The notes: generated by a model from the letters alone, not told the origin. A stretch of 49,398 nucleotides of DNA from a virus (IMGVR_UViG_3300042888_000978:1-49398); one strand, 5' to 3'; shown: positions 8,060-41,891, numbered from the stretch's first letter. Made by a program: numbers and translations.

Positions 8060-8410
8060 ATGGACGACCGTTTACAAACTGCATTGGATTTTTCTAAGTA
8101 TCGCCAAACACTTTCAATACAACGAAGGCTTCTAAAAGAAAAACTACAAGCTAAATTAACCTATGGCACTGCCGGTGGCATTTTTTACATTGATCATTCT
8201 TTAATTTCTTTTGTACAATTATGTATTGATCAAGGGAGAGTATCTGGTATACCGTTAATTGATAGCAATGAAAATCCTGTCCTAATCGATGACTTAATTA
8301 AATTTCGAGATGAAATTTTTGATAGATATTTCTCAGCTAGTTTCCAATATATGAGCGAATATGACGCTATTAAAAAAAGTAGAACAGTTGAAAAATTAGT
8401 AGATTTATGA
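8060..8410 (+). CDS. Conserved small T4-like phage protein, function unknown
   Basis: A 116-residue protein. The ATG at 8060 is chosen over the one at 8054 because GAGG lies 6 bases before it and overlaps the earlier codon. It is mostly helical and charged at the N-terminus (KYRQTLSIQRRLLKEKLQAK), followed by a small beta part around IFYIDHSLISF. Similar short proteins sit downstream of tail genes in marine T4-like phages. It is coupled to the next gene by an ATGA overlap, which places it in the glycosyltransferase operon. No enzymatic motif is seen; it could be a tail accessory protein. Confidence 0.6.
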   Translation: MDDRLQTALDFSKYRQTLSIQRRLLKEKLQAKLTYGTAGGIFYIDHSLISFVQLCIDQGRVSGIPLIDSNENPVLIDDLIKFRDEIFDRYFSASFQYMSEYDAIKKSRTVEKLVDL

Positions 8411-10100: not shown

Positions 10101-10678
10101 TTGATTTTGACAGTTGGTTACAACAATATACTGCACCACAAGTAGAATACTGGGCAATTTTTGAACCTACTACTGGTGAAGTCACTGGAATTTATCCCGA
10201 TTCTGCTGCTGATGATAAACAATATAAAATAAAAATTGATAGCGATCTGGCAGAAGATATACATAACGGAATAATTCAAATGAGTTCTTGTTTTGTAGAT
10301 ATAGATTCCGAAACAATTGAAATTGTTACTAAGCACAGTCTTATTAAAATTGACGATGTTTTGCATAGAGTAATTGATAAAAAATATAGGGCAACTCAAA
10401 AAAATGATATTATTATTCAATTTAACGAATTAGAAAATAAAATAATTTTTGTTTTATACAGTTCAACTAACACTAGAAAAATACATCGGGACGGCAGTAC
10501 TGAAATGCAGTTTTTTATCACCTCCTATAATGATCCACATAATCTTTACCAAACAATAACTTTTCAACTAAAAGATTTAGAACAAGGTTCTAAAGAATTT
10601 ATATACACTGGCCCCCACAAACGATTTAGTATTTTTACAAGAAGAATATTAAAAAATTATGTTTTTGAAAAAATATGA
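10088..10678 (+). CDS. Uncharacterised protein within the glycosyltransferase cluster
   Basis: A 196-residue acidic protein not recognised from any family. The N-terminus (YWAIFEPTTGEVTGIYP) has the look of a small beta domain found in phage tail proteins. The middle is rich in Ile/Asp/Lys, and the C-terminal half (QFFITSYNDPHNLY, then a FTRRILKNY end) reads as a beta-rich domain. There is no DxD, signal peptide or membrane segment. It is locked between transferase genes by a 13-base overlap and an ATGA overlap, so it is probably made with them. It might be a target or scaffold for the sugar transferases, but that is a guess from position only. Confidence 0.5.
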   Translation: MEEIIDFDSWLQQYTAPQVEYWAIFEPTTGEVTGIYPDSAADDKQYKIKIDSDLAEDIHNGIIQMSSCFVDIDSETIEIVTKHSLIKIDDVLHRVIDKKYRATQKNDIIIQFNELENKIIFVLYSSTNTRKIHRDGSTEMQFFITSYNDPHNLYQTITFQLKDLEQGSKEFIYTGPHKRFSIFTRRILKNYVFEKI

Positions 10679-11571
10679 AAACCATAGAACTAGATATTGT
10701 ATTTTTAAGCTATGACGAGCCTAATGCAGATTTACATTATGCAGATCTATGCAATAAAGTTCCTTGGGCTAAACGAGTACACGGAATAAAAGGCAGTGAT
10801 GAAGCACACAAAGAAGCTGCAAGACAATCAGAAACAGATTGGGTTGTTACTATAGATGCAGACAATATTGTTGACACAAAATTTTTTAACACAGAGTTTG
10901 ATTCCGATCAAAAAAATTTACAAGTAGTTAGCTGGTTAGCACGTAATAGAATTAATGGATTAAGATATGGCAATGGCGGCCTTAAAATTTGGCGTAAAGA
11001 TTTTATTCTAAATATGAAAACGCACGAAGCTAGTAACAATGAAAGAGCACAGGTAGACTTTTGTTGGGAACAAGGTTATCAACAATTTAAAGAGTGCTAT
11101 AGCGAAACAGTTATCACAGGATCGCCTTTTCAGGCCTGGAGAGCAGGATTTCGTGAAGGAGTAAAAATGACATTGCTTGACGGAGTTCGAGTCCCGCCGG
11201 ATGAAATTCGTGAACGAGTGTGGTGGCATAACTTACATAGACTGCGTATGTGGTCAACTGTGGGCTCACATGAAGAAAATGGTATATATGCTGTCTACGG
11301 AGCTAGACTGGGTACTTGGTTAGCAAATTGCACTAAGTGGAATTATGTGGAAGTTAGAGATTTTGAAATCCTTAAAGATATTTGGAATCAATATGGACGT
11401 CCGTACGAAAAGGTTAATCAAGAAGGACTGGTTGAAGAAATAAAATTACTTGGTGAAAAAATTAAATTAGGATTGGGATTTGATTATCCTTATTTAGATC
11501 CCAAACAAAGTAAGTATACCTTGGACTTGTATAACGAAACAATAAATTTAACAAATACCTATTTAAAATGA
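10675..11571 (+). CDS. Glycosyltransferase-like protein of a marine phage family (DAD motif)
   Basis: A 298-residue protein opening with LDIVFLSYDEPNAD, then AKRVHGIKG and AHKEAARQ, leading to WVVTIDADN with DAD at residues 61-63. This order of motifs (strand, hydrophobic helix, DxD strand) is that of GT-A glycosyltransferases; the YDEPNAD/RVHGIKG signature is shared with the next gene. The C-terminal half (SPFQAWRAGFREG, RLRMWSTVG, NGIYAVYGAR) is a conserved domain likely to bind the acceptor. It is coupled to both neighbours by overlapping codons. The family is seen in marine phages; the substrate is unknown. Confidence 0.62.
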   Translation: MKTIELDIVFLSYDEPNADLHYADLCNKVPWAKRVHGIKGSDEAHKEAARQSETDWVVTIDADNIVDTKFFNTEFDSDQKNLQVVSWLARNRINGLRYGNGGLKIWRKDFILNMKTHEASNNERAQVDFCWEQGYQQFKECYSETVITGSPFQAWRAGFREGVKMTLLDGVRVPPDEIRERVWWHNLHRLRMWSTVGSHEENGIYAVYGARLGTWLANCTKWNYVEVRDFEILKDIWNQYGRPYEKVNQEGLVEEIKLLGEKIKLGLGFDYPYLDPKQSKYTLDLYNETINLTNTYLK

Positions 11572-12656
11572 TCTACGATATTTTTTATGTAAGCAAAAAC
11601 ACCGTTAATGACACCAAGTGGCTATCTTTTAATAAAAGATTTCCATTATCTCAAAAAATTGAAAATATAAAATGTTTCTCAGATATTTCTAACAAAACAT
11701 TTACTAAATTATTTTGGGTAGTTTGGGATGATTTAATTATTTCGAATGATTTTAATTTTAATTATATTGTTCCAAAATGGGATGAAAAATATATTCATGT
11801 TTTTAAAAATGCAGAGCACTTTGATGGCGTAGCATTATTCTCAAAATATTCAGATGTAAGTGACAAAGAATTTGAAAAAAGATTTTACAGAAATCACAAA
11901 AAAATAGATATAATTGCCAGCAACCCAACAGACACTGAACTTTATGATATAGTGTTTATCAGTTATAATGAGCCGACCGCTGATATTAATTTTATAAATT
12001 TAAAATCAAAATTTCCAAGAGCTAAAAGAGTTCACGGAATAAAAGGAATACACCAAGCACATATTACAGCTGCCAAACTAGCAGATACCTGTATGTTTTG
12101 GGTAGTAGATGGTGATGCTGAAATTTTAGAAGATTTTAATTTTGATCATGAAGTATCTACTCATGAAAAAGATATCGTACACGTTTGGCGTAGTAAAAAT
12201 CCTATTAATGATTTAGTATACGGATATGGTGGTGTGAAACTATTGCCAACTTTGTTGACTATGGGTATGGATGTATCTAAGCCAGATATGACAACTAGTA
12301 TATCTAATAAATTTAAAGCAGTTAAAGCTATATCAAACATCACGGCATTTAATACTGATCCGTTTAACACTTGGAAATCAGCGTTTAGAGAATGTTGTAA
12401 ATTATCTAGTAAAATTATTGATAGACAAAAAAGCGAAGAAACATTGTATAGACTTGACGTATGGTGTACGCTAGGTATTGATCGACCGTTTGGACAAGAT
12501 GCGATTGCCGGAGCAATAGCAGGTAAGGAATATGGTAGTGCAAATATAGATAATTTAGAAGCACTAAAAAAGATTAATGATTTTGATTGGTTAAAAGAAT
12601 ATTATGAACAACAAACAAAAAATAAACCTCAAGCAGGCATCAATCGTCTTGACTAA
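11568..12656 (+). CDS. Two-domain glycosyltransferase-like protein with a degenerate N-terminal copy
   Basis: A 362-residue protein. Residues ~125-350 match the preceding gene (YDIVFISYNEPTAD, AKRVHGIKG, FWVVDGDAE with DGD at 181-183, then DPFNTWKSAFRE and RLDVWCTLG). Residues 1-115 look like a decayed copy of the same domain: YDIFYVSK, RFPLSQKIENIK, then FWVVWDDL followed by FNFNYIVP, in parallel with FWVVDGDAEIL and FNFDHEV. In the first copy the DxD is replaced by WDD, so it is probably non-catalytic and may bind substrate. It is coupled by ATGA to the previous gene and ends before a late-promoter-like gap. Confidence 0.6.
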   Translation: MIYDIFYVSKNTVNDTKWLSFNKRFPLSQKIENIKCFSDISNKTFTKLFWVVWDDLIISNDFNFNYIVPKWDEKYIHVFKNAEHFDGVALFSKYSDVSDKEFEKRFYRNHKKIDIIASNPTDTELYDIVFISYNEPTADINFINLKSKFPRAKRVHGIKGIHQAHITAAKLADTCMFWVVDGDAEILEDFNFDHEVSTHEKDIVHVWRSKNPINDLVYGYGGVKLLPTLLTMGMDVSKPDMTTSISNKFKAVKAISNITAFNTDPFNTWKSAFRECCKLSSKIIDRQKSEETLYRLDVWCTLGIDRPFGQDAIAGAIAGKEYGSANIDNLEALKKINDFDWLKEYYEQQTKNKPQAGINRLD

Positions 12657-12680
12657 TCAAATCACAAGACAGTCGTTAGG

Positions 12681-12688
12681 CCTAAATA
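12681..12688 (+). promoter_or_regulatory. Possible late-promoter-like octamer (CCTAAATA)
   Basis: This has the TAAATA core of the T4 late octamer with two mismatches and lies 13 bases before the radical SAM start codon, in the 45-base gap after the transferase cluster. The evidence is weak and mainly positional. Confidence 0.3.
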
Positions 12689-12701
12689 AGAAAAAACTAT
12701 A

Positions 12702-13958
12702 ATGACATCATCTACCCTATGCGCCGTGCCATGGATGCATTTAAATTTTGAACCTAACGGAAAAGTTGTACCATGTTGTTTAACTTCGGCACACAACTAC
12801 TTTGCAGGTGACCTCAATACTCAATCTATTGAGGAGATTTGGAATAGCAATAATATGAAAAATCTCCGTAAAGATATGATAAATGGTGTTGAGCCTAAAG
12901 TGTGCGATAAGTGTTTCAACAGAGAAAAGGTAACTGGTGAAAGTGGCAGATTTTATCACAACCACGACTTTCCAGAGGTAGTGGCAAAAATTCCAAACAT
13001 TACGTTAGCAGATGGAACGTGTACTACTATGGAGTTAAAGTACTGGGACTTCCGTTTTAGTAATCTTTGCAATTTCAAATGTCGAAGTTGTGGCCCACGT
13101 TATAGTTCAGCCTGGGTCCCAGATGCTAAAAAACTAGGACACACTGATCAAGAAAAAGTATGGAACATCGATTCGATAGATAACCAAACCAATTTTGATT
13201 TTCTTAAAGATCAAATTGATGTTGTTAAACGCATTTATTTTGCGGGTGGTGAGCCGTTGTTAATGCCTGAACATTGGCAAATTTTAGACATGCTGGTAGA
13301 GAAGAAACGTTTTGATGTCAAGCTAAGTTATAATACCAATGCGTCCGTATTATCCTATGGCAAAAAGAATATCATCGATTATTGGAGTCAATGGCAGTTC
13401 GGTAAACTGGAAGTATGGCCAAGTATTGATGAAATAGGTGAACGTGCTGAACTAATTCGCTCAGGTACAGTATGGTCCAAGGTAGAAGAAAACTTAAAAG
13501 AACTTGCTAAACACGCTAACATTATGCTTCGCCCAGGGCTTACTATTGGTGCGTGGAATGTACATCGCTTACCTGAAATTATTAATCATTTGATTAGCAT
13601 CGGGGTAATTAGATCTCACCCAACGTCTAAGAATAGCAATTACAATAATTTCTTTATCAACTTGCTAGAACATCCTGTCCACTATCATGTAAACATCCTC
13701 TCCGACGAATATAAAGAACAGATATCTGCTAAACTAAAAGCGTTTGTTATCGAACATAACAAAAAGTATAATACAGATATTACAGCAACATTTAAACACA
13801 TCTTGCACGAATTAGAAAAGCCGTTTAACTTAGAAGCCGCAAAGGAATTCTTAAAGATAACTAGTCAATTGGATATACTGCGGAACGAAGATACATTTAA
13901 GATATTGCCAGAAATGGAAGATGTTAGACGTAGTGTTTTAAAGACGTTTGATGTTTAA
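12702..13958 (+). CDS. Radical SAM enzyme with N-terminal twitch/SPASM-like domain
   Basis: A 418-residue protein. The radical SAM motif CNFKCRSC (Cys 123, 127, 130) binds the 4Fe-4S cluster, and a FAGGEPLL segment near residue 182 contacts SAM. Before the barrel lies a cysteine-rich domain (Cys 7, 25, 26, 68, 71; CAVPWMHLNFEPNG, VVPCCLTS, VCDKCFNRE) of the twitch/SPASM type that holds an auxiliary Fe-S cluster. This N-terminal twitch arrangement is a known phage and bacterial subfamily with unknown substrates. Related enzymes modify peptides or sugars. It closes the glycosyltransferase cluster, so a role in making or attaching a modified sugar, or in modifying a virion protein, is plausible but unproven. 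It is the last plus-strand gene before a convergent terminator. Confidence 0.85.
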   Translation: MTSSTLCAVPWMHLNFEPNGKVVPCCLTSAHNYFAGDLNTQSIEEIWNSNNMKNLRKDMINGVEPKVCDKCFNREKVTGESGRFYHNHDFPEVVAKIPNITLADGTCTTMELKYWDFRFSNLCNFKCRSCGPRYSSAWVPDAKKLGHTDQEKVWNIDSIDNQTNFDFLKDQIDVVKRIYFAGGEPLLMPEHWQILDMLVEKKRFDVKLSYNTNASVLSYGKKNIIDYWSQWQFGKLEVWPSIDEIGERAELIRSGTVWSKVEENLKELAKHANIMLRPGLTIGAWNVHRLPEIINHLISIGVIRSHPTSKNSNYNNFFINLLEHPVHYHVNILSDEYKEQISAKLKAFVIEHNKKYNTDITATFKHILHELEKPFNLEAAKEFLKITSQLDILRNEDTFKILPEMEDVRRSVLKTFDV

Positions 13959-17927: not shown

Positions 17928-18364
17928 AGATTCTTTTTTCTAACAGAGTTGATATCAATAACGCCAGTATTTACAGCGCCACCAAAATCACCATCAACTA
18001 CTACATTAGCACACAGTTCACGGAACCAACGATCCACAATTTCTTCGTCTTTGTCACCGTCAAAACCATATCCCTCTTGCTTTAATTTTAACACAAAAAG
18101 CTCGTTCCAGTCAAGCTCAAAAAAGCCATTACGTATGTTATCTTTGTTGATGTGTGTATTAAGCACCCCTACCCACGGTTCTTTCAATTTGGTTGCTCGA
18201 TCTTTTGGACTTAGTTTGGCAGTTTCTTCTGCTTCTACAGCACGTTCTGCAGATGCAACTGCGTCTTTAGCAATCTTTGTGGATTCTTCAGCCAACTGTA
18301 CTGCTGCTGCTGTTTCGGCCTTGAGTTTATCAATGCCAAATAATTTTTCTACAAATCGTCTCAT
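17924..18364 (-). CDS. Conserved T4-like phage protein with N-terminal coiled coil
   Basis: A 146-residue protein. ATG 18364 overlaps the stop of the QueE-like gene (TGATG). Residues ~10-55 are an Ala/Glu/Lys helix (AETAAAVQLAEESTKIAKDA) likely to form a coiled coil. The rest is a conserved domain (KEPWVGVLNTHI, NGFFELDWNELFV, DRWFRELCANVV) typical of marine T4-like phages. It may be a virion or replication accessory protein; the sequence gives no enzymatic hint. Confidence 0.6.
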   Translation of the reverse strand: MRRFVEKLFGIDKLKAETAAAVQLAEESTKIAKDAVASAERAVEAEETAKLSPKDRATKLKEPWVGVLNTHINKDNIRNGFFELDWNELFVLKLKQEGYGFDGDKDEEIVDRWFRELCANVVVDGDFGGAVNTGVIDINSVRKKNL

Positions 18365-19209
18365 CAAGTACCCCACTCATTTTTAAATAACGGCACTTGT
18401 AATCTATCACTATAACGCCATCCACGTTTCATAGCTGCCAGTGCCACATTCTTTGCGTTGAGTGTATAAACACTTTCCACACCACCAACTGGCATTAGAT
18501 AAACATGCCCGTTAAATCCAGCATTACGGAATGCACCCACAGCACATTCAGCATCTGAAATATCCTGCTCTGTTGCAACAACAAATTTAAGATAAACTGT
18601 TCCTACTTGTTCATACTCACACACAATTTCTGGACAGATAGCTTCCTCCCACTTCTCTCCACTTGCTGGAAGTTTAGCACTTACACTGAATGTAAGTTCT
18701 TTATTATCTGTCCATTCAATTAGATATTCTTTAAATTTAGGATCAAGTTTTTGAGTACCATTTGTTTCAAAAGTAATCTCTTGCAAGTCACGCATCTTAG
18801 GATGATCTAGTAGATCTGGATAAGCACGTTGCCACCCTAACAATGGTTCGCCGCCTGTAATAACTAAGTGTTCGTCAATCCAATGATCCTGCGGAAGCAT
18901 TTCCATAATTCGATCTACAATAGCTTCGCTAGTAAGCATAGGCGACAAATCTTTAAAGCGTGGATCCCAACTAGCATAGCTGTCACAGCCTGTGCTAACA
19001 AGTGGCAAATCTTTATAATCCTTGTAAGGAATATTGTCGTGAGCAAAAGCAATAGTTTCAACTTCTGTACTTATTTCACCCCGCGGCATACCGAAGCCTG
19101 CACATTTAAAGTTACAGCCGAAGGTTCTAAGGAACACACTGGGCACCCCCATATATCTACCCTCGCCCTGTATAGAGTAGAAAAGTTCCGCTATTTTAAT
19201 CTTGCTCAT
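18364..19209 (-). CDS. queE: QueE-like radical SAM enzyme (7-carboxy-7-deazaguanine synthase family)
   Basis: A 281-residue protein. ATG 19209 is chosen because GGGG lies 6 bases before it. It opens with the QueE signature (ELFYSIQGEGRYMG) and has the VITGGEPLL SAM-binding segment and TFETNGT, as in QueE. This enzyme converts 6-carboxytetrahydropterin to 7-carboxy-7-deazaguanine, the precursor of preQ0. The cluster motif is odd: Cys 32 and Cys 36 are followed by Phe at 39 where the third ligand of CxxxCxxC is expected. A later GCDSYASW (Cys 75) may supply it. It lies in the same operon as FolE-, QueD- and DpdA-like genes, which points to 7-deazaguanine made for phage DNA. Confidence 0.82.
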   Translation of the reverse strand: MSKIKIAELFYSIQGEGRYMGVPSVFLRTFGCNFKCAGFGMPRGEISTEVETIAFAHDNIPYKDYKDLPLVSTGCDSYASWDPRFKDLSPMLTSEAIVDRIMEMLPQDHWIDEHLVITGGEPLLGWQRAYPDLLDHPKMRDLQEITFETNGTQKLDPKFKEYLIEWTDNKELTFSVSAKLPASGEKWEEAICPEIVCEYEQVGTVYLKFVVATEQDISDAECAVGAFRNAGFNGHVYLMPVGGVESVYTLNAKNVALAAMKRGWRYSDRLQVPLFKNEWGT

Positions 19210-19663
19210 GCTCAACCCCACTTTTAAATATATTTGACCATTTTTTTAATTTGGCAATTTTGTTACCTGCTGCCGCAAGCACTTCCTCTTTATCTACTAT
19301 ATTATGATCAATACAAAGATCGATCATGGCCTGTAAATCTCCTAGTTCTTCTGCTAGATGTTGTCTGTTAGTAAGTGGCTTACCGGGTTTGACATTATCT
19401 AAACCGAATCGACTTATCTTGCTGATAGCAACAATTACTTCTGCACATTCCTCTTGAGTAATGTCTAGGATTTCTTTTTCTTTATTATTCATATTACTAG
19501 TATACACTCTTTTTGTCAAAGACCAAGAGCCATTTTGATTATCTTTCCAGTCTAATACATCACCTTCTTTCCAACCTGTTTCTTCGATCATATCTTCAGG
19601 GAATGGTAGTATCAAGTCACCGGTTTCGGGATCGTCTTGTAGTTCAATTGTCCAATTTTTCAA
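19196..19663 (-). CDS. AbrB-like / MazG fusion: NTP pyrophosphohydrolase
   Basis: A 155-residue protein. TTG 19663 is preferred because GGAG lies 6 bases before it and it begins the conserved KNWTIEL strand; longer starts would sit deep in the deaminase gene. Residues 1-50 (DPETGDLILPFP, GWKEGDVLDW) resemble a swapped-hairpin AbrB/MazE DNA-binding domain. Residues ~58-150 are a MazG-type domain with metal ligands EEcaE (71-75) and EElgD (105-109), which hydrolyses NTPs to NMPs and may alter ppGpp or dNTP pools. In related phages the two parts are usually separate small proteins. It overlaps both neighbours by 14-20 bases. Confidence 0.72.
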   Translation of the reverse strand: MKNWTIELQDDPETGDLILPFPEDMIEETGWKEGDVLDWKDNQNGSWSLTKRVYTSNMNNKEKEILDITQEECAEVIVAISKISRFGLDNVKPGKPLTNRQHLAEELGDLQAMIDLCIDHNIVDKEEVLAAAGNKIAKLKKWSNIFKSGVEHEQD

Positions 19664-20165
19664 TGCTAACTCCTGATTTTTTAAGGAACTCGATTCCTGC
19701 ATCGTCTCTATAGTTTTCACCGTAGTAGACACCATTTATGCCAGACTGGTATATAAGTTTGGCGCATTCAATACAAGGGGCATGAGTAATAAAAATATCA
19801 GCACCAAGCCCACTTTCATTGGACTTTGCCAATTTTGCAATAGCATTTGATTCAGCATGAAGTACTTCTGGTTTAGTTTTTAAGGCATATCTTCTAGCAT
19901 ATCCTAGATCGGGATCGATATCCTCTTCTTCAAATGGCCATCGATCATAAATCTCTTCGGGGCTTAGCCAACCCCCAGCATCACCGCCCATGTACTCTTT
20001 GTGCTCACAATCATTATTCCAACCTGCCGGCATACCATTGTAGCCAATACTAATAATACGATCATCTTTAACAACAATAGCACCAACGTGCAATCTACGT
20101 GCGTGACTAAGTTCTGCGAATACCTTTGCGGTCTTCATATAAGTTTGTTTGAACTTTTCCTTCAT
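19644..20165 (-). CDS. dCMP deaminase
   Basis: A 173-residue protein, near the usual phage length. Zinc ligands of the cytidine-deaminase fold are visible: HAE at 103-105 (the Glu shuttles the proton) and PCIEC with Cys 131 and 134. The N-terminal SHARRLHVGAI and GYNGMPAGW parts match the dCMP deaminase subfamily. It turns dCMP into dUMP for thymidylate synthesis, supporting phage DNA made at a different base ratio from the host. It lies beside the MazG fusion, so nucleotide-pool genes cluster here. Confidence 0.9.
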   Translation of the reverse strand: MKEKFKQTYMKTAKVFAELSHARRLHVGAIVVKDDRIISIGYNGMPAGWNNDCEHKEYMGGDAGGWLSPEEIYDRWPFEEEDIDPDLGYARRYALKTKPEVLHAESNAIAKLAKSNESGLGADIFITHAPCIECAKLIYQSGINGVYYGENYRDDAGIEFLKKSGVSIEKLDN

Positions 20166-20346
20166 TTTGTTTCTTCCATTCTTGTTGTTTAAGTTCTCGA
20201 CATTGCTTTTTTACTTCTACGGGAATATCAGGATGCCATTCAGCCATACCACAATCGTATACTCTATATTCAGGCATTGGTGTCAGACTGAGTACTACTA
20301 CCCACATTAAAAATCCTATTGCAAATCCCACTAGATATTTTGTCAT
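20107..20346 (-). CDS. Small membrane-anchored phage protein, function unknown
   Basis: A 79-residue protein. Residues 4-22 (YLVGFAIGFLMWVVVLSLT) form one membrane helix. The short outside part holds a YDCGMAEWHPDIPVEVKKQC motif with two cysteines, seen in other marine phages, then a charged tail. It overlaps the deaminase start by 59 bases, unusual for this compact genome, so the end of the frame could be partly dispensable. Probably in the inner membrane with its tail in the periplasm; no role is known. Confidence 0.6.
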   Translation of the reverse strand: MTKYLVGFAIGFLMWVVVLSLTPMPEYRVYDCGMAEWHPDIPVEVKKQCRELKQQEWKKQNEGKVQTNLYEDRKGIRRT

Positions 20347-20537
20347 AGTCTATCACTTAGTAATAGATTACACATTAATACATCTTGTTCTGTTTTAAAG
20401 AAAAATTTCATATAGTCTGCAGAAACTTCTGTGGTATATCTATGTCCCGGCAATCCGAAATGTTCAATTACCATAGCGCAACTTTCGTTCCACCATTTAT
20501 TTTCCTGCGAGTTCCAAGTTAGATTAACGACGTTCAT
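20343..20537 (-). CDS. Small phage protein, function unknown
   Basis: A 64-residue protein starting at ATG 20537 and coupled to the following gene by ATGA. It contains VIEHFGLPGHRYTTEVSADYMKFFF followed by a Cys-containing end; this pattern of a short strand-turn-strand is shared by small proteins in other phages. The start overlaps the upstream gene by 14 bases. No enzymatic features are seen. Confidence 0.5.
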   Translation of the reverse strand: MNVVNLTWNSQENKWWNESCAMVIEHFGLPGHRYTTEVSADYMKFFFKTEQDVLMCNLLLSDRL

Positions 20538-20715
20538 CAACTAATACTTTTCTAAACCTATGTGTAAAACTTTCTTTTAGGCACGAATATTCGAGATTGT
20601 CTCGGAGACGCATATAGTGTACCCAAGTTTGATTTCCTATATCAACTACATAAATTACTCGAAAATATTCTCGAGCCCCTGCTTCCCACACTTCGCCATT
20701 ACTAACTTCTTGCAT
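20524..20715 (-). CDS. Small phage protein, function unknown
   Basis: A 63-residue protein. ATG 20715 is preferred over the upstream one at 20745 because AAAGGG lies 6 bases before it and the overlap with the preceding gene is shorter. It is beta-rich (GEVWEAGAREYFRVIYVVD, then WVHYMRLRDN). No family is known. Confidence 0.5.
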   Translation of the reverse strand: MQEVSNGEVWEAGAREYFRVIYVVDIGNQTWVHYMRLRDNLEYSCLKESFTHRFRKVLVDERR

Positions 20716-21169
20716 TTTTAGCCCTTTCAGATAGATATGTTTCATTATGAATCCACCTGTTATTTACTAAAAATCCCCATTCACGCTTTTGCGGCCCTGG
20801 CATAAACATAGTCCAGGCAGTCACACTAGGATCAAGCTCAATACGATGATAGCTGTTAGCCCTACATACACGAAAATGGCCGGGTCCTCGCCATTTACAT
20901 ATCTCATTAAATTTACGACCCTGTTCGTCAAATTGAGGAATCCATTCATAATATCCACCTTTAAGTATTAGTGTTGCGTATGGCCAAGGATGATCATGAA
21001 CATCATCTGGATCTGATTTAAGAAATTTATGAATAAAAACATTAAACGGAAACCAATCTCTATCTTTTAGAAAAACGTAATATCTTTCAAGATATGGCTG
21101 ATCGTTCACACGATCCATTATGATTCTTTTACGTTCTAATCGTTCTAAAAAATCGAGAAACCATTTCAT
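20702..21169 (-). CDS. Cupin-like phage protein
   Basis: A 155-residue protein. The DPDDVHDHPWPYATLILKGGYYEW block has the strand order and His spacing of a cupin barrel metal site, followed by FRVCRANSYHRIEL with another His as in the second cupin motif. WTMFMPGPQKREWGF ends the barrel. Cupins bind metal and can act as enzymes or binders; no substrate is apparent. Similar proteins occur in many marine T4-like phages. It is joined to the next gene by ATGA. Confidence 0.62.
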   Translation of the reverse strand: MKWFLDFLERLERKRIIMDRVNDQPYLERYYVFLKDRDWFPFNVFIHKFLKSDPDDVHDHPWPYATLILKGGYYEWIPQFDEQGRKFNEICKWRGPGHFRVCRANSYHRIELDPSVTAWTMFMPGPQKREWGFLVNNRWIHNETYLSERAKNARS

Positions 21170-21381
21170 TTACAAGTCTCCAGAAATTCATTTAACCTAT
21201 GGGCAGCCTCGTTAAAATCTACAGCCCAAACCTTTGCTTTAATTTGATTATCAACAATACTCATATCAAACGGAACAACGCCATTAAATCTGAAGTTATC
21301 TGGGACTTCGGTAGTGACAGTAAACTCGTGCAAGTTCTTCGCTCTAAAAATAAGATTAGTTGCCATGTCTACTGAATTCAT
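21166..21381 (-). CDS. Small conserved phage protein, function unknown
   Basis: A 71-residue protein. ATG 21381 is chosen over a GTG at 21390 because AGGTGG lies before it. It has the FRFNGVVPFDMSIVDNQIKAKVWAVDF type of alternating strands, then a final helix with Asn-Glu-Phe-Leu. No family is recognised. It is coupled to the cupin-like gene by ATGA. Confidence 0.52.
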   Translation of the reverse strand: MNSVDMATNLIFRAKNLHEFTVTTEVPDNFRFNGVVPFDMSIVDNQIKAKVWAVDFNEAAHRLNEFLETCK

Positions 21382-21382
21382 A

Positions 21383-21892
21383 TTATCCACCTTGTGTTGA
21401 GTCTTTTGGAAATACTTCGCTGAACGGCCACGATGTATTTGGATCTGGGCGAGATTTAAGTTTTACATTTTCTTCAATAACTGTACCATCATCTTCGCAC
21501 AGGTCAATTTGATACGGTGCAATAATATGTACGGCAGTGTCTTCTTCTGCCCAATCATGCTCGCCGTCAAATAACCAACCTGCTCCACCTTCGTAGTAGA
21601 GTTCTTTTAGTTCTTGCTGTTCTAGTTCACCAATGTCATCACTGAATTCCCACTCAACGCTAACACTGTCATCAAACTCACAGCCCCAACCACAATCGGT
21701 TCGAGCATAGGCAACTGTATCACCTTCCCAGGGAAGATTGCAATCTAAATCACCTTCGACAAAACCTTGACCCCAACGATATGTTTCGTCAATGTTAAAC
21801 CAACTGACGCTATCATCGGGGTTCCTACGATACATTTCTACATGGTAGACAATGCTTTTCTTTTCTAATGGTTTGATTACGTATACAGTCAT
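21383..21892 (-). CDS. Acidic phage protein, function unknown
   Basis: A 169-residue, strongly acidic protein with several Trp and four Cys (ARTDCGWGCEFD contains two). Strands such as YHVEMYRRN and VSVEWEFSDD suggest a beta sandwich. The high negative charge would suit a DNA-mimic or a protein that binds a basic partner, but that is inference only. It starts one base after the preceding small gene's stop (TAATATG). Confidence 0.52.
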   Translation of the reverse strand: MTVYVIKPLEKKSIVYHVEMYRRNPDDSVSWFNIDETYRWGQGFVEGDLDCNLPWEGDTVAYARTDCGWGCEFDDSVSVEWEFSDDIGELEQQELKELYYEGGAGWLFDGEHDWAEEDTAVHIIAPYQIDLCEDDGTVIEENVKLKSRPDPNTSWPFSEVFPKDSTQGG

Positions 21893-21893
21893 A

Positions 21894-22007
21894 TTAGAGT
21901 TCCATAATAAAATATTTCGATGCAGGATATTGCGTCTGCAACCATTCTAACAGGCCTTCTTCAACTGGCAAACGAACGCTGTCAAATTTGTTAGTAATGT
22001 ATCTCAT
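21894..22007 (-). CDS. 37-residue small protein, function unknown
   Basis: A 37-codon frame: starts as ATGA overlapping the FolE stop, ends in a TAA one base before the next start. It reads MRYITNKFDSVRLP, a helical ...GLLEWLQTQY, and a FIMEL end. The exact fit between neighbours, and the pattern of similarly packed genes, argue that it is translated. No family is known. Confidence 0.5.
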   Translation of the reverse strand: MRYITNKFDSVRLPVEEGLLEWLQTQYPASKYFIMEL

Positions 22008-22750
22008 CGCGGTGCAAACTCCTGTTGTAGTTTAATATTGTCAAAGAATTCTTTCTTTGTATGTGGATCATCTTTAAATGAACCTTTCAATACAGTAGTC
22101 TGTGTTAGACTTGAGTGTGCCATGATGCCGCGATTCTCACAACAGCCATGAACTGCCTGCACGTAGACTGCTACGTTTTCTGATTCGGTTGCTTTGCTGA
22201 TTTCGCGGGCGATGTCGTTGCACAATTCTTCTTGTAATGTTCCACGACGAGCACACCACTGTGCTATTCTGGTATACTTTGAGAGACCAATAAGTTTATT
22301 AGCGGCAATGATACCGATGTAGGCAACCCCAGAAACAGGCTGGTGGTGATGAGAACACATACTTCGTAGCTCACTACGTACCACAAGCATACCCTCGTAA
22401 CGGTCGGCGCTGTCATTTGGAAAAGCTGTTGCATCTGGTGCCGGATCATATCTACCTGCCATTACTTCGTTAAAATACATTTTAGCAAGACGTCTTGCGG
22501 TACCTTTACTATTGGGATCGGTTTCGCGATCAATAAGTAATTTATCAAGCACTTGTTCAAATGCAGGTGTTGCTTCGTCAATTAGTTTCTCTAGATCACC
22601 TTGCCAAAGGTATTCACTAATATTGTCACCGGCCCAAAATCTTTTACCATCACGTTTCATTTTAAAGCGAATATGGTCGCCTAGGTAAGCTTCTGAATAT
22701 CCGCCATCGCCTGCCATTGCGTCTAGGCCTGTTTCTGTTTTATCTGTCAA
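22004..22750 (-). CDS. folE: GTP cyclohydrolase I (FolE)
   Basis: A 248-residue protein starting at TTG 22750 behind CGGAG (8 bases). Zinc and catalytic residues of FolE are present: MCSHHHQPV (Cys 132, His 134-136) and HGCCENRG (His 201, Cys 203/204). LIGLSKYTRIAQWCARRG matches the signature that usually reads GLSKLARIV. The enzyme turns GTP into dihydroneopterin triphosphate, first step for both folate and 7-deazaguanine. With QueE-, QueD- and DpdA-like genes in the same operon, deazaguanine synthesis is the more likely use. Confidence 0.88.
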   Translation of the reverse strand: MTDKTETGLDAMAGDGGYSEAYLGDHIRFKMKRDGKRFWAGDNISEYLWQGDLEKLIDEATPAFEQVLDKLLIDRETDPNSKGTARRLAKMYFNEVMAGRYDPAPDATAFPNDSADRYEGMLVVRSELRSMCSHHHQPVSGVAYIGIIAANKLIGLSKYTRIAQWCARRGTLQEELCNDIAREISKATESENVAVYVQAVHGCCENRGIMAHSSLTQTTVLKGSFKDDPHTKKEFFDNIKLQQEFAPR

Positions 22751-22790
22751 TTTATATTCTCCGAGTTAGTGTCGTGGATGACATACATTA

Positions 22791-23891
22791 TTATTTTAAC
22801 ATCTTTAATAGTTGAGTGCAACTAAAAAAGTTTTCTTTCAGTATATCTACTTGTTTATTTAGGCTAGGCAAGAATTTTTCGTAATTATTCATGTATTGAA
22901 TAATCTTATTACAAATATCAGGTCTGTGTGCCTCGTATGCACTATAGCTTTCAGTCCATTCGCTAGGATATTTAAATGTATCTAATGCCATTTCGCTGTA
23001 GCTTAGTCTATCGGGAACCATAGGAATCGCATCTACAATAGCACCTTCATACCAACTGATGCCAAGCGTTTCTTGTAGGTTAGCACTGAATATCAGTTTA
23101 GCTTCTCCTAACAAATTGTGATATTCATTTTTGGTCAACTGTTGATCTTGACAAACAACAAATTCATATTGCGGCAACTGATGTTTTAGATCACGGAAAA
23201 TTTCTACCTGCTTCTCAGGAGCAATTCGATGTGGGAACAAGATAAGATCACGCTTGGGCATACCTTTGTACATTGCTAATGTATCCTGCATATACTCCAT
23301 GGGCCAACCTGTGCGTACAAACTTAGGATACTCGCCTGCAAGTATTTCTTTAAGTTCTTCTTCGTACCAAGGATTTTCTACAGAATGCCCATTGTTCAAC
23401 AGTTCTCTATTAAACATTTCTATATGAAAGTCAGTGGCAAAGTAGTTGTGATCAAAGGCTGAAAAGAATGATTTCTCTGCATTACGCACCCAAGGCTTAT
23501 TACCAACAAGTCTGCCTAGAAAGTCTTGAGGATCATAACTGCCAGCATGCCACAAGCCATGTGTAACAACTGGAATGCCCAGCAGTTCACTCATGTACTT
23601 GAGATTGATGATGCCAGGGTGCCAAGCATCAGTAAATAAGAAGTGATCATTGGCGCGAATGCTTCCGTCGCAAAATAACCGACCCATCTGCTCAACTTGA
23701 CTAGCCTTGTAGATATTAGTGCCGCCAAAGTTGAGAAATGCCCCAGGAGTGGTAGCACTAGGAATATCCGTAGGACCTGATATAATGTTGACATTGTGTC
23801 CTGCCTTTCGTAGGAGGGTAGGTACATGAGTCTTCCATTGACCAGTGTACCTTGTCTCGACTGCTTCTAGATCAACGAGAAAAACTGTCAT
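22791..23891 (-). CDS. Glycosyltransferase (GT-B fold, family-1/4-like) in the modification cluster
   Basis: A 366-residue protein. ATG 23891 is chosen since it begins the conserved VFLVDLEAVETRYTGQW; a longer frame upstream lies inside another gene. A GT-B plan is visible: an N-terminal Rossmann half with TDAWHPGI and a THGLWHAG segment, then LILFPHRIAPEKQVEIF (start of the second Rossmann half) and a FSANLQETLGISWYEGAI nucleotide-sugar site with Glu. The cytosolic enzyme lies between FolE- and QueD-like genes, so it might add sugar to the modified base in phage DNA, as other phages glucosylate their bases. Acceptor and donor are unknown. Confidence 0.66.
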   Translation of the reverse strand: MTVFLVDLEAVETRYTGQWKTHVPTLLRKAGHNVNIISGPTDIPSATTPGAFLNFGGTNIYKASQVEQMGRLFCDGSIRANDHFLFTDAWHPGIINLKYMSELLGIPVVTHGLWHAGSYDPQDFLGRLVGNKPWVRNAEKSFFSAFDHNYFATDFHIEMFNRELLNNGHSVENPWYEEELKEILAGEYPKFVRTGWPMEYMQDTLAMYKGMPKRDLILFPHRIAPEKQVEIFRDLKHQLPQYEFVVCQDQQLTKNEYHNLLGEAKLIFSANLQETLGISWYEGAIVDAIPMVPDRLSYSEMALDTFKYPSEWTESYSAYEAHRPDICNKIIQYMNNYEKFLPSLNKQVDILKENFFSCTQLLKMLK

Positions 23892-24147
23892 TGCGCTGAC
23901 GGAAGTTATTGTTTCCGCTACGATTGTACTCGCCGCGATTGTTAGTGTACTCACCACGTGGACGACGTGGGCGTGTGCTGTAGTAATAATTATTCCAAAT
24001 CTGACTATCTCTATTGTAGAGATTAGCCTCGTTAAAATCACACAGTTCAAAGCGACAGAAGTCTTTAAACTTTTCCAGATCATCAAAGATTTTAACAATG
24101 TCTGGACGATCTTCGAAATACGAAACGTTTTTATAATTCTTAGCCAT
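23872..24147 (-). CDS. Small conserved T4-like phage protein, Arg/Asn-rich tail
   Basis: A 91-residue protein. The first half (NVSYFEDRPDIVKIFDDLEKF, then FCRFELCDFNEANLYNRD) is conserved in marine T4-like phages. The second half is a disordered Arg/Asn/Gly/Tyr stretch (YYSTRPRRPRGEY, then NRSGNNNFRQRN) that could bind nucleic acid. It overlaps the start of the glycosyltransferase by 20 bases. The role is unknown. Confidence 0.6.
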   Translation of the reverse strand: MAKNYKNVSYFEDRPDIVKIFDDLEKFKDFCRFELCDFNEANLYNRDSQIWNNYYYSTRPRRPRGEYTNNRGEYNRSGNNNFRQRNDSFSR

Positions 24148-24161
24148 TTTAGCTTTTCCTA

Positions 24162-24551
24162 TTAATACTTAATAAATGAACCATTTTCTCCGTCTTCGGA
24201 GACCTCAATCCAAACCTCACGGTTGGGATACTTTTTGGAGATAGCGTCATATAAATCACCTGACATCATCTCACAACTCTTGTAGTCTAACGCTAGTATA
24301 CTATCTTTATAAAGATTTAGCAACCATCGTTTGAACTGAATAAACTCAATATCGCGATCATCGTGTGTTACACCTATCCAAACTTTAAAGTGGAAGATAT
24401 GGCGATGCGGATAGCCTAGAAAACTTACATCATACTCGTCACCTGTAGCAAGATTAGCGTCTGTAAGTGCGGCTGGATATTTGTGCATACCTTCTTTGTT
24501 AAAGGTAACCCAAATCATTTTGTTTGGTCGAATGTCTTGTTTAATAATCAT
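24162..24551 (-). CDS. QueD-like / 6-pyruvoyl-tetrahydropterin synthase-fold protein
   Basis: A 129-residue protein with the T-fold layout of QueD/PTPS: His 23 (EGMHKYPAAL), His 49 and His 51 (PHRHIFHFKVW) sit at the positions of the three zinc ligands, and the order RDIEFIQFKRW, LALDYKSCEMM, then VWIEVSEDGENG matches the family. The enzyme makes 6-carboxytetrahydropterin from dihydroneopterin triphosphate, feeding QueE. Two catalytic residues differ: no Cys near residue 42, and Tyr 90 where His follows the Asp. So it may be altered in activity. It is ATGA-coupled to its upstream gene. Confidence 0.66.
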   Translation of the reverse strand: MIIKQDIRPNKMIWVTFNKEGMHKYPAALTDANLATGDEYDVSFLGYPHRHIFHFKVWIGVTHDDRDIEFIQFKRWLLNLYKDSILALDYKSCEMMSGDLYDAISKKYPNREVWIEVSEDGENGSFIKY

Positions 24552-24775
24552 ACTGATAACAATCCTTTGGCAAATGTTTGAATTTCTTCTTTAGTCATAT
24601 GGAAGTTATAGGTGCTGGTAAAATCTACTTGACCGTTGTCATTGAGGCATTCTTGAATAACATCAAGAGATAAGCAACCTTTAGGACTTACTGCTTCCCA
24701 TGATTCTACACGCACTCTAAATGCAGAATCTTCTTTAACTGTAAACTTTTTTACTTTTAAACTTTCGTGTTTCAT
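24548..24775 (-). CDS. Small phage protein, function unknown
   Basis: A 75-residue protein: charged KVKKFTVKEDSAFRVRVESW strand, then a helix (FHMTKEEIQTFAKGLL). It is coupled to both neighbours by ATGA overlaps. No family is recognised. Confidence 0.52.
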   Translation of the reverse strand: MKHESLKVKKFTVKEDSAFRVRVESWEAVSPKGCLSLDVIQECLNDNGQVDFTSTYNFHMTKEEIQTFAKGLLSV

Positions 24776-25134
24776 CTCAAACTCTCCATAGTGATAATTT
24801 TTGCTAGCTCTTCACCTAGGTCTTTATCGTCTGTGACCACGTGCAGACTGTGTCTATGATCGTCCTTTTGACGATCATACTTGGTTGTTTCAATAATAGT
24901 TCCACCACCAGCACTGTAAACATTTAATCTAAACCCTTGTGACTGAATGTTTGGCCCTTCACTGTCAACGCTGATAACATTTCCACTGTAATCGGCACTA
25001 TCATCCATTATCCAGTTTCGAATTCTTTGTTTAAATGTTAGTTTCATAGGTTTATTTGTCATGTATGATCTGGTCATTGATTTCTGCAATCGATTAACGG
25101 ACTTAGCAGTCGAGGCATACGGGTTTGTTGCCAT
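24772..25134 (-). CDS. Conserved small phage protein, function unknown
   Basis: A 120-residue protein. A basic N-terminus (SVNRLQKSMTRSY, LTFKQRIRNWIMDD) precedes a beta domain with QSQGFRLNVYSAGGGTIIET and a short acidic end with VVTDDKDLGEELAKI. It occurs in marine T4-like phages; no activity is known. It is joined to the gene after it by ATGA and to the one before by TAATG. Confidence 0.57.
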   Translation of the reverse strand: MATNPYASTAKSVNRLQKSMTRSYMTNKPMKLTFKQRIRNWIMDDSADYSGNVISVDSEGPNIQSQGFRLNVYSAGGGTIIETTKYDRQKDDHRHSLHVVTDDKDLGEELAKIITMESLR

Positions 25135-25667
25135 TATTTGATAATCTCATCTTTGCCATATTGATCCCAACTAGTAAACTTATTTCTATCTAGTAGGTCA
25201 TGGAGGTTATGGCACCACACTCCGGGATTAGTTGCTTTAAAATCTTTGTCGTCTATCTTTATTGTAGCATTATATCCCAGCTGTTGTAAATAGGGCAGTT
25301 TAACCGAAATCTGTGGAATGAACTGACGCTTCTCAACCAGACCGCTTTCAAGAAGTCCTTCTACTTGTGCTAGATCTAGATCTAGTGTACACCAAAATTC
25401 ATCATCGGCATCTAGACAAACATAGATCATATTTTCCCAAAGACGCCATTGATCTGCATCGTTGAATTTTAGATTAGGAAAACTTTGATTAGCACCAAAG
25501 TAGATGTGAGTACATCTATGGTTGCGAGCAAGTTCCATGATCATATACTCGTCGTGTACACCTGTTACAAACAAAGTTTTCATTCCGTAAGCAGGAGTCT
25601 TTTCGATCTCGATTCCTGTAAAGAATGTGATGCTGTCTGCAACACCTGATTCGTAATTTCTTTTCAT
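25134..25667 (-). CDS. Conserved phage protein, function unknown, in the modification cluster
   Basis: A 177-residue protein. Conserved pieces include DSITFFTGIEIEKTPAYG, TLFVTGVH, HIYFGANQSFPNL, a LDLDLAQVEGLL helix and a closing NPGVWCHNLHDLLDR. The pattern reads as alpha/beta. It does not contain the SGGxDS loop of QueC, so it cannot be the missing preQ0 synthase. Its place between zinc-site, QueD-like and DpdA-like genes makes it a candidate for an unknown step in base modification; this is only positional. Confidence 0.55.
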   Translation of the reverse strand: MKRNYESGVADSITFFTGIEIEKTPAYGMKTLFVTGVHDEYMIMELARNHRCTHIYFGANQSFPNLKFNDADQWRLWENMIYVCLDADDEFWCTLDLDLAQVEGLLESGLVEKRQFIPQISVKLPYLQQLGYNATIKIDDKDFKATNPGVWCHNLHDLLDRNKFTSWDQYGKDEIIK

Positions 25668-26080
25668 TCTGCAAACCTTTCTTTCATACGTTGTTGACGT
25701 TCTGCTTCGTGATGATCACAGAGAGTCTTAATCCACCCACCTTGTCTACTTTTACCAGGAGCACCACATTCTTCACAACTGGCATCGGCCCACGTTTCCG
25801 CCATACGAACCATTCCATTGATATTTTCGTCACCACCATCGTAGTAGAAACGTAGTCCGCCAAACTTCTCTTTAATCTGTGCTACTGTTACCTGCGGCAC
25901 TACTTCAGACTGTTTGTTCTTCCAATCAATATGATGCTGAATATTACTGCACAACTTTTCTAGAATTGGCCACCAACCTTCACCACATGCAAATCCACCA
26001 TACTTACCACTAAACATCTTTGGAAATCGTTCTTCCATGTGTTTGGCAAAAGCGTCATATTTTTCAAATTCGTCACTCAT
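25664..26080 (-). CDS. Zinc-finger-containing phage protein, function unknown
   Basis: A 138-residue protein. ATG 26080 overlaps the preceding stop as TAATG. The C-terminal part has CEECGAPG followed by GGWIKTLCDHH, giving four Cys/His ligands for a zinc ribbon-like site; proteins with this ending are common in phages. The front half (MEERFPKMFSGKY, GGFACGEGWWPIL) is unlike known enzymes. The zinc site suggests nucleic-acid or protein binding. ATGA joins it to the next gene. Confidence 0.6.
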   Translation of the reverse strand: MSDEFEKYDAFAKHMEERFPKMFSGKYGGFACGEGWWPILEKLCSNIQHHIDWKNKQSEVVPQVTVAQIKEKFGGLRFYYDGGDENINGMVRMAETWADASCEECGAPGKSRQGGWIKTLCDHHEAERQQRMKERFAE

Positions 26081-26268
26081 TACCAAGTACTCACGTCAGT
26101 GTTATCAACTTTAATATCCTTGCCCAGCAATTCAAAATGAACTGTTGTGGTAGGCCCAATACCACTAGAGTGTTCCTCAACAATTTCAAATTGAGGAACC
26201 TCCGGAAAACGATTGGCAATATCTGTCAATGTTTTAATTTGAGTCTGTGTTAATATATATTTTTTCAT
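26080..26268 (-). CDS. Small phage protein, function unknown
   Basis: A 62-residue protein with a helix (YILTQTQIKTLTDIANRF) then strands (QFEIVEEH, TTVHFELLG). Overlapping start and stop codons on both sides put it in one operon. No family is known. Confidence 0.52.
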   Translation of the reverse strand: MKKYILTQTQIKTLTDIANRFPEVPQFEIVEEHSSGIGPTTTVHFELLGKDIKVDNTDVSTW

Positions 26269-26474
26269 CGCTCGTCATCAAAGTCAACAGTTTCGTGATC
26301 GTGTTCCCATTGCTTACGTCTTAGTATAGCAAGTTCGTCTCTTAAAAGCAACCTCTGTTTCTTCAATTCTTGCATTTTCATATCTTCAAACAGTCCATTC
26401 TTTTCTAGTGTATCGATTTTTTGGTCCAACACTCTATGAGATTCCTCTAAATGTTTAATTCTGTTTTCGTACAT
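26265..26474 (-). CDS. YdcH/SlyX-like (DUF465-type) coiled-coil small protein
   Basis: A 69-residue protein. The pattern HLEESHRVLDQKIDTLEK then LKKQRLLLRDELAIL is that of DUF465/YdcH proteins, two helices forming a hairpin or coiled coil. Phages often carry such proteins; their role is unclear. It lies directly after the DpdA-like gene. Confidence 0.6.
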   Translation of the reverse strand: MYENRIKHLEESHRVLDQKIDTLEKNGLFEDMKMQELKKQRLLLRDELAILRRKQWEHDHETVDFDDER

Positions 26475-26483
26475 AGTTACTCC

Positions 26484-28019
26484 TTATTCAGCTACAAGTT
26501 TATCCAATTCACCATCTTCACGATCGTCGTTCCATGAGTCTTTATCTTCGCTGCCTTCTTCGTAGAACAGGTCATTAGAGATATTTGTAACACCACCACG
26601 TAGGCGTGAGCCTTCCAAATTCTGCATAAAGCCTCTGGTCTCTGCATCAGCAATCATTTCAAATGCAGATTCTTTGTTAGGACAATTAAACAGTTCTTCA
26701 ACAAAGCGATCAAAGTACAAGATGTTGCGTGGAACCCAATCACTGTACTCATCACTCATATCACGATCTTTGTTTTTCTTCCACATTCTCCAGTCAGGTC
26801 GAATCTTAGCTTGTTCAATATCTGCCAAGTTGTTAGCACGTTGTACAGCAACAATGTGTTGATAGACATTATGTCCCATCATTAGTGCATAACCGAAGCT
26901 ATCCCACGATGTTTTGCCTTCTTTACCGATCTTGTTTAACATTCCTGGCTTGTAATGACACACATCTGAAACATTAAGTCTACGTCCAATTTCGCTTTCG
27001 AACGGAAACGGAATGTCTGGACGTGATGCAAGTGCTTTGTTATCTGGGGCCTTGTCCATAATAACACTCCAACGCTTGGCTGTATGCTGACTGTTAGTAT
27101 AGACCAGTCCGTGTGCAGTTGCAATAAACGGTGATGCACAGTCAAAGCTGATGGTAAAGTTAGGATTGACGTGTTTACGGATCTGACGTTGAATACTGGT
27201 CAAGTAGCATGACCAATCTAACTGTGCAGTACCCAAGAAGTGCATCCAATCCTTGCCTTCTAACATACCGTCGAAGCGCATAGTGATCAATCGGCGAAGA
27301 GTAATATGCATCTTGCACATGTTAGCACCGCCCATCGCCCAACCTTCGGCGGCTTTATCGCCCCAGACAGTCTTGTCACTGAACTCTTTAACGCCTTCAT
27401 ACCATGCTTCAGCAGTATCCCAGTTACTGCCCTGTAGAACGTTTAAGAACTTAGTAGCACCTAAACGATTTTCTAAGAAGTACTTGTTGTTGTGACGAGT
27501 TTTTTCTAGACAGTCTTCAAAAGACTTCAATCCAGTCTTTGGGGAGTGAATATGATCGCAGGCCCAAGTCGGAACGTCAAGCATCATTGACCAGTCAGCA
27601 GTTAATTCAAGCCAGTTAAGAATATCATCTCGAGTTTTGTTAGCTGCTTTACCTTCAAAGTCTAGCCAATCAAACTTAAGAATACCTTTACCAATCTGAT
27701 AACCGCCAGAGTCACCCAAGATCATTGTCTTGCTACGATCACGTTGTTGAATCATTGAATCATGATCCATTGTTTTAGTAAGATCTAATTGTGCGTGACC
27801 TGCTGAATACAAACCATACTTGTAATAAAAGTATCCTTGCTCCGGGTTTAAAAAGTTCATACCTTCAATGCCACGATCAAATCCTTTAGGAATACGATCT
27901 TTAGGTACGAACTCTTCCTTACGTTGTTTTGCAATGTAAGTGCTGTAGAAACTACTGATTGCAGGCAAATAGACTGCGTAGTCTTTCTGTAGGGGTGTTA
28001 AATCAACTGGTTGTTTCAT
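26484..28019 (-). CDS. dpdA: DpdA-like DNA deazaguanine transglycosylase (tRNA-guanine transglycosylase fold)
   Basis: A 511-residue protein with the landmarks of the TGT/DpdA TIM barrel: LGDSGGYQIGKG (Asp 103, DSGG-YQ), a VLQGS segment, AMGGANM (double Gly), HFLGTAQLDW, then SFDCASPF with Asp 293 in the place of the catalytic nucleophile. It is longer than bacterial Tgt (about 375). DpdA family members exchange guanine in DNA for a 7-deazaguanine. FolE, QueD-like and QueE-like genes in the same operon would make the base. A Tgt-type CxCxxC zinc site is not obvious, as seen in other phage DpdA proteins. Protection from host restriction is the likely purpose, inferred. Confidence 0.8.
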   Translation of the reverse strand: MKQPVDLTPLQKDYAVYLPAISSFYSTYIAKQRKEEFVPKDRIPKGFDRGIEGMNFLNPEQGYFYYKYGLYSAGHAQLDLTKTMDHDSMIQQRDRSKTMILGDSGGYQIGKGILKFDWLDFEGKAANKTRDDILNWLELTADWSMMLDVPTWACDHIHSPKTGLKSFEDCLEKTRHNNKYFLENRLGATKFLNVLQGSNWDTAEAWYEGVKEFSDKTVWGDKAAEGWAMGGANMCKMHITLRRLITMRFDGMLEGKDWMHFLGTAQLDWSCYLTSIQRQIRKHVNPNFTISFDCASPFIATAHGLVYTNSQHTAKRWSVIMDKAPDNKALASRPDIPFPFESEIGRRLNVSDVCHYKPGMLNKIGKEGKTSWDSFGYALMMGHNVYQHIVAVQRANNLADIEQAKIRPDWRMWKKNKDRDMSDEYSDWVPRNILYFDRFVEELFNCPNKESAFEMIADAETRGFMQNLEGSRLRGGVTNISNDLFYEEGSEDKDSWNDDREDGELDKLVAE

Positions 28020-34503: not shown

Positions 34504-34839
34504 TTATTTATTTTTCTTGGCGCGGCCTGCTTTCATGTTAGCTAACCAATGTGCTAGTTGCCCTTTACGCCCACCAGATTTAGCAGTTTTACGTAAACTA
34601 CTTACTGATGCTTTAGTATTAATACCATGACGTTTAGAATCACCTTTATCTTGTGGATTCCGCCCGTCAGCAAAGTTTTCGTGCTCTACGCTTTCTCCGC
34701 CCCCACCATCGCCACCTTCACCTGAGTCTCCGCTGTAGCCAGCATAGTATCCATAGCCGCCGTACGGTCCCGGTCCGTAAGCAGCCCAACGGGGTCGCTT
34801 ACGTTTTTTTCTTTCAATTATAAATTCTACAGCTCTCAT
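34504..34839 (-). CDS. Basic Gly/Tyr-rich protein with capsid-targeting-like leader
   Basis: A 111-residue protein starting [18 protein letters not shown]. The leader is close to the T4 capsid-targeting sequence (M-K-x-x-x-E-F-I-x-E). A Gly/Tyr-rich repeat follows ([16 protein letters not shown]). The C-terminal module ([30 protein letters not shown], then a GRAKKNK end) is a basic domain seen repeatedly in marine phages. The very basic tail suggests DNA binding inside the head. Joined by ATGA to the IscA-like gene. Confidence 0.52.
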
Positions 34840-35195
34840 TCGTGAAATTGATGATCGTCATGATAATTATCGGCTACAGAGAAACTTGAACCACAGCCAC
34901 AGGATGTTTCTGCATTAGGATTACTAATACTAAATTGACTGCCTGATAGATCTTCTTTATAATCTATACTGGCACCCTGCAGATATTGCATACTGGTAGC
35001 ATCAACTAATACTTTAAAGTTACCTACAGGAAATTCGAAATCGTCTTCATTTTGTTCTTCGTCAAGAGTGAATCCGTAGCTCATACCACTACATCCTCCA
35101 CCCTGCACAAACGTACGAAGTTTAAGATTTGGGTTGCTTTCTTCAGCAAGAAGATCGGTAATTTTAGACTGAGCGTTTTCTGTAATTGTAATCAT
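34836..35195 (-). CDS. IscA/ErpA-like A-type Fe-S carrier
   Basis: A 119-residue protein matching the A-type carrier fold: [11 protein letters not shown] (Cys 35), then SCGCGSSF with Cys 99 and 101, the three ligands of the family. These proteins move Fe-S clusters to client enzymes. The window has two radical SAM enzymes that need clusters, making a phage carrier meaningful. It sits oddly among head-like genes, joined by ATGA on both sides. Confidence 0.85.
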
Positions 35196-41834: not shown

Positions 41835-41862
41835 TAGTATTATTTCCTTAATTCAACAACTT

Positions 41863-41891
41863 ATTTTAACAAATTATAAATCTATTGTCAA
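41863..41891 (-). promoter_or_regulatory. Sigma70-type promoter for clpA
   Basis: On the minus strand, TTGACA (perfect) and TAAAAT are spaced by exactly 17 bases, beginning in the stop codon of dnaJ and lying before the clpA start with AAGGA between. It is a strong host-type promoter, probably early. Confidence 0.72.

Follow-up and report, generated by a model that had tools for sequence, protein, structure and literature searches.

The DNA analysed here (the window), an entire IMG/VR virus record of 49,398 bp, is a fragment of a larger phage. It carries genes for 7-deazaguanine synthesis and for a guanine transglycosylase. Phage 7-deazaguanine DNA modification involves the transglycosylases DpdA or DpdA2 together with FolE, QueD, QueE and QueC (Hutinet 2019, PMC6884629). 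Like these systems, the window encodes FolE, QueE and a Tgt-fold DpdA whose catalytic aspartates match theirs, but it lacks QueC, its DpdA belongs to a subfamily present in no tested library, its QueD-fold enzyme is devoid of the QueD catalytic residues, and a glycosyltransferase (GT) is linked to the module. The genes very probably form a QueC-less 7-deazaguanine DNA-modification system, and comprise the following:

18364..19209, minus strand: QueE, 7-carboxy-7-deazaguanine synthase, a radical SAM enzyme (phrog_2076, 2e-51)
20702..21169, minus strand: cupin/cysteine-dioxygenase-like protein (phrog_4786, 1.7e-35), of uncertain module membership
22004..22750, minus strand: FolE, GTP cyclohydrolase I, with a TTG start (PF01227, 5.2e-39)
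22791..23891, minus strand: GT4-type retaining glycosyltransferase, 366 aa (EX7E motif, R222/K227, homologues in Pfam)
24162..24551, minus strand: 129-aa enzyme of the QueD fold (T-fold) that lacks both the catalytic Cys and the Asp-His loop of QueD (AF2 model, Foldseek, residue conservation)
25134..25667, minus strand: conserved 177-aa protein near DpdA (conserved neighbourhood)
26484..28019, minus strand: DpdA-type guanine transglycosylase, 511 aa, of an unnamed subfamily called here DpdA_W (modelled Tgt fold, two catalytic Asp, hhalign to DpdA2)

Four of these ORFs (DpdA-like, T-fold, FolE and QueE-like) have the coordinates and strand given in an earlier note on this DNA, which overlooked the GT as a fifth member of the module. 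The note described one operon; the genes do lie on the same strand over 9.7 kb, but about ten other genes are interspersed among them, and promoter and terminator scans across the module are near chance. No near DNA match to the window was found among named phages. The same proteins occur in hundreds of viral contigs, which argues against a chance assembly, and contigs related to the window reach 353 kb. QueC, QueF and QueD have no match in the 49,398-bp window, although in a fragment of this size the absence of a gene is weak proof by itself.

FolE and QueE, both named in the earlier note, are clear by profile and by active-site residues. The active-site residues and zinc ligands of FolE (C137, H139, H140 and C208) are retained by practically all 231 relatives. 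QueE matches the NCBIfam QueE models below their cut-offs; its radical-SAM cysteines C44, C48 and C87 (read-through numbering) are present in 151/151 aligned relatives, and an insertion separates C48 from C87. The QueE family is found in 36/36 related records and FolE in 32/34. Together with the Tgt-fold enzyme, these two proteins support the view that the phage makes and inserts a 7-deazaguanine.

Gene neighbourhoods were compared in 159 loci in which the T-fold gene is flanked on each side by 4.5 kb or more; the set is not independent, as it contains many near-identical phages and some contigs twice. The 177-aa protein, which has no Pfam or PHROG match, occurs in 145 of them and lies upstream of the DpdA2 gene of Acidovorax phage ACP17 as well, while the cupin/cysteine-dioxygenase-like gene lies near the module in 105. 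Elsewhere, the window encodes an A-type iron-sulfur carrier look-alike (IscA/ErpA-like, 34836-35195), a DnaJ-like protein adjoining a ClpA/B-like ATPase (39513-42721) and, downstream of tail-fibre-like genes, several glycosyltransferase-like genes with a radical SAM/SPASM-like protein (8407-13958).

The 511-aa protein has no family match in Pfam, PHROGs, PADLOC or NCBIfam. PDB sequence searches with the protein or its profile found nothing, so that the fold had to be assigned from structure. The AlphaFold model (pLDDT 89, from an alignment of 64 relatives) has the (beta/alpha)8 fold of Tgt, and 41/41 PDB matches at E<=1e-3 are tRNA-guanine transglycosylases, the best at 3e-8. Both catalytic aspartates are invariant: D103, in the DSGGxQ motif, is present in 290/290 relatives and D293 in 293/293. 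The DpdA2 family was defined on phage nt-1 (PMC6884629), and an hhalign comparison with a DpdA2 alignment that includes this phage gives a probability of 82 and E of 1e-5, with DSGG/D103 and D293 in register with the DpdA2 motif aspartates; of the named subfamilies this comparison took in DpdA2 only. The modelled fold and the presence of both aspartates in every relative indicate that the protein is a DpdA-type enzyme, as previously suggested, of a subfamily named by no library tested. It would act on DNA, and its subfamily may be one of those in Cui et al. 2023.

A third DpdA-like group, with an LDNSGFE motif, lies near the T-fold gene in phages without the GT (L085:10071-11339, L308:7450-8322, L310:7683-8540 and L311:7818-8612). 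In RHph_I1_18 this protein is fused to a DUF3310 domain.

The model of the 129-aa protein (AF2, pLDDT 93) matches QueD and PTPS structures in Foldseek, with E. coli QueD (4ntk) at a probability of 1.00, and shares with the latter the T-fold, the three-His metal site and the base-anchoring Glu. The residues H23, H49 and H51, as well as L45, are found in 298/298 relatives, and E119 in 292/292. Unlike in E. coli QueD, the position of the catalytic Cys (CxxxHGH) is this invariant Leu, and the Asp-His loop is deleted. The hhalign match to phage QueD is weak (E 1e-3), and a separate true QueD/PTPS gene is present in 21 of 34 large related records. The lost catalytic residues and the coexisting true QueD rule out the QueD step that the earlier note assigned to this protein, while the retained His and Glu residues indicate that it probably acts on a bicyclic base related to that of QueD. 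We propose 7-carboxy-7-deazaguanine (CDG) as this base. The T-fold domain makes up the C-terminal portion of a longer protein in Vibrio phage Bakedbeans (L307:6230-7381) and Chryseobacterium phage MA9V-3 (L311:6464-7345); in MA9V-3 the N-terminus of this protein resembles an HNH-type endonuclease.

QueC-less phages with dCDG or dDG, and with a predicted CDG decarboxylase DpdL, were reportedly described by Cui et al. in 2023. These systems resemble the window in the absence of QueC and in a CDG-derived base, and DpdL is a candidate for the identity of the T-fold protein. A linked glycosyltransferase is not known to be part of them.

The GT starts at the ATG at 23891, the N-terminus it has in common with its homologues from PA5oct, Phosso and ACP17; the N-terminus of the longer mechanical ORF, which extends to 24098, is spurious. 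The window protein itself goes undetected by Pfam, and 18 of 44 related members match Glycos_transf_1 (8e-12 for the X1 homologue). The EX7E motif of GT4 enzymes (E274/E282) and the phosphate-site residues R222 and K227 are conserved, and by these residues the protein is classed as a retaining GT4-type glycosyltransferase. Like T4 alpha-glucosyltransferase and other phage DNA glycosyltransferases it is phage-encoded, retaining and predicted to be GT-B, and is proposed to act after base insertion, but the acceptor would be a 7-deazaguanine rather than hydroxymethylcytosine, and there is no detectable sequence family match.

Of the 159 partly redundant loci, 154 have the GT near the T-fold gene, 145 have DpdA_W there and 139 have FolE, in every case on one strand. 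The T-fold gene and the GT are both present in large records selected by DpdA_W alone (13/13); those selected by the GT contain the T-fold gene (11/11), and those selected by the T-fold gene contain the GT (6/6, two of the GT matches being weak). The pair adjoins different DpdA types, DpdA_W or DpdA2, in phages that include the PA5oct/Paride group. It also occurs in bacterial chromosomes: in five Magnetospirillum loci (L320-L324) the GT, T-fold, DpdA_W and PTPS/QueD genes follow one another close to a tyrosine integrase gene, and in two of them a CoiA-like nuclease is encoded just upstream of the GT. Pseudooctadecabacter jejudonensis (L325) has, near an integrase, a YhhQ-like gene (Vut_1, just under the cut-off), the GT and DpdA_W, and also another GT that has a relative in BUCT-ZZ01.

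The distribution of QueC is largely the reverse of that of the pair. The earlier note described the genes as being without QueC, and this holds for the window and across its relatives, as no QueC match exceeds the cut-off in the 33 T-fold-bearing records among the 34 large ones. The remaining record, the DpdA_W-containing Vibrio phage 2.275.O, is the only one with QueC over the cut-off and the only one without the T-fold gene; the GT is missing too, and one of its genes carries the annotation of a QueF-type reductase. Among DpdA2 phages, nt-1 and pf16 contain QueC and no T-fold gene, whereas ACP17, X1 and BUCT-ZZ01 contain the GT/T-fold pair and no QueC over the cut-off. QueC is thus present in each of the three examined DpdA phages without the pair (nt-1, pf16 and 2.275.O). 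In D479 a partial QueC-family match over the cut-off occurs alongside the T-fold gene. With this match counted against the pattern, Fisher's exact test of T-fold against QueC in 42 records gives p 3e-4, a descriptive value since the records were not randomly sampled. QueC and the GT/T-fold pair therefore appear to swap in two DpdA lineages, and the pairing of an altered QueD-like protein with a glycosyltransferase, where other phages use QueC, suggests a sugar-modified DNA base.

A sister of the window GT is found in Xanthomonas phage PhiXhv-12, which has FolE and QueE. There (L328:3669-6903) a gene annotated as GFAT encodes a Gat-QueC fusion and adjoins a PIG-L deacetylase, an oxidoreductase and the sister GT; these genes may represent a second sugar-deazaguanine system. 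The arrangement recalls MshA/MshB and BshA/BshB, in which a GT4 glycosyltransferase works with a PIG-L deacetylase; the window GT is also GT4-type, but no deacetylase is seen in the window module and the proposed acceptor is a DNA base.

The best reading, with a probability of about 0.55, is a QueC-less module in which the QueD-fold enzyme processes the carboxy base, DpdA inserts it and the GT glycosylates it. FolE, QueD (from host or phage) and QueE would, by their families, produce CDG. The QueD-fold enzyme, with its metal-site His and base-binding Glu residues, would alter CDG, most simply by decarboxylation or reduction. DpdA_W would exchange guanines in phage DNA for the altered base, and the GT would add to it a sugar from a host nucleotide-sugar. 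Host nucleases would be blocked by the product, a glycosylated 7-deazaguanine. The link of the GT to the module is strong, but an acceptor group on plain CDG or 7-deazaguanine is not obvious, and in principle the GT may have a different target; the odds that the base is glycosylated are roughly even.

The second possibility is a deazaguanine that bears no sugar, where the T-fold protein is a DpdL-like CDG decarboxylase yielding 7-deazaguanine, or CDG itself is inserted, and the GT acts elsewhere. It agrees with the retained metal- and base-binding residues of the T-fold protein and with the lack of QueC in the window and in the T-fold-bearing large records. Moreover, four phages (RHph_I1_18, Ahp1, D479 and MA9V-3) combine the T-fold protein, FolE and the third DpdA-like protein without a GT, which shows that the T-fold function is independent of the GT. 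An unsugared base is nevertheless unlikely, given the near-constant company of the GT next to both DpdA_W and DpdA2 and in bacterial chromosomes, and the position of its sister beside Gat-QueC.

The earlier note had considered either the carboxy form or preQ0, made by host QueC or by one encoded elsewhere in the genome, as the inserted base. The carboxy form may be inserted, but the linked GT points to a further modified base. PreQ0 has a slim chance, with the T-fold protein and the GT then unrelated to the modification: QueC is present in most bacteria, but phages with a related DpdA that make preQ0-type bases encode their own QueC and have no T-fold gene.

The transglycosylase and the GT might instead modify tRNA to give a glycosylated queuosine-like base. 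Queuosine of eukaryotic tRNA is known to carry sugar, and the fold matches of DpdA_W are tRNA enzymes. Against this, inspection of the window proteins by eye rather than by profile showed no QueA/QueG-type gene, and PMC6884629 treats DpdA2, the closest phage family with a name, as acting on DNA. A DNA polymerase gene is near the module genes in 132 of the 159 partly redundant loci, and a tRNA target is accordingly improbable. Finally, known phage DNA glycosyltransferases usually act on hydroxymethyl-pyrimidines, but T4-like glucosylation of such a base by a GT that shares only the neighbourhood of the module is very improbable, since the thymidylate synthase/dCMP hydroxymethylase family is found in only 15/36 records and is absent from ACP17, X1, BUCT-ZZ01 and 18 others, some of them fragments; hydroxymethylcytosine as the GT substrate is not supported.

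No paper joining deazaguanine in phage DNA with a linked glycosyltransferase turned up in the literature, judged by titles and abstracts, and the Paride paper does not mention deazaguanine. We know of no precedent for glycosylated 7-deazaguanine as a class of hypermodified guanine. That the DNA of these phages and of some bacteria such as Magnetospirillum contains this base, made without QueC from CDG reworked by the QueD-fold enzyme and decorated by the GT4-type enzyme, is a tentative proposal with slightly less than an even chance. If it is true, phage DNA would have a sugar-decorated guanine besides its known glycosylated pyrimidines, and the QueD-fold enzyme would perform a new chemistry. 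The modification would extend over a very common aquatic phage group and the PA5oct/Paride group of Pseudomonas phages, and mass spectrometry could test the module directly in a cultivable system. The bacterial chromosomal form may then be a defence or a selfish island.
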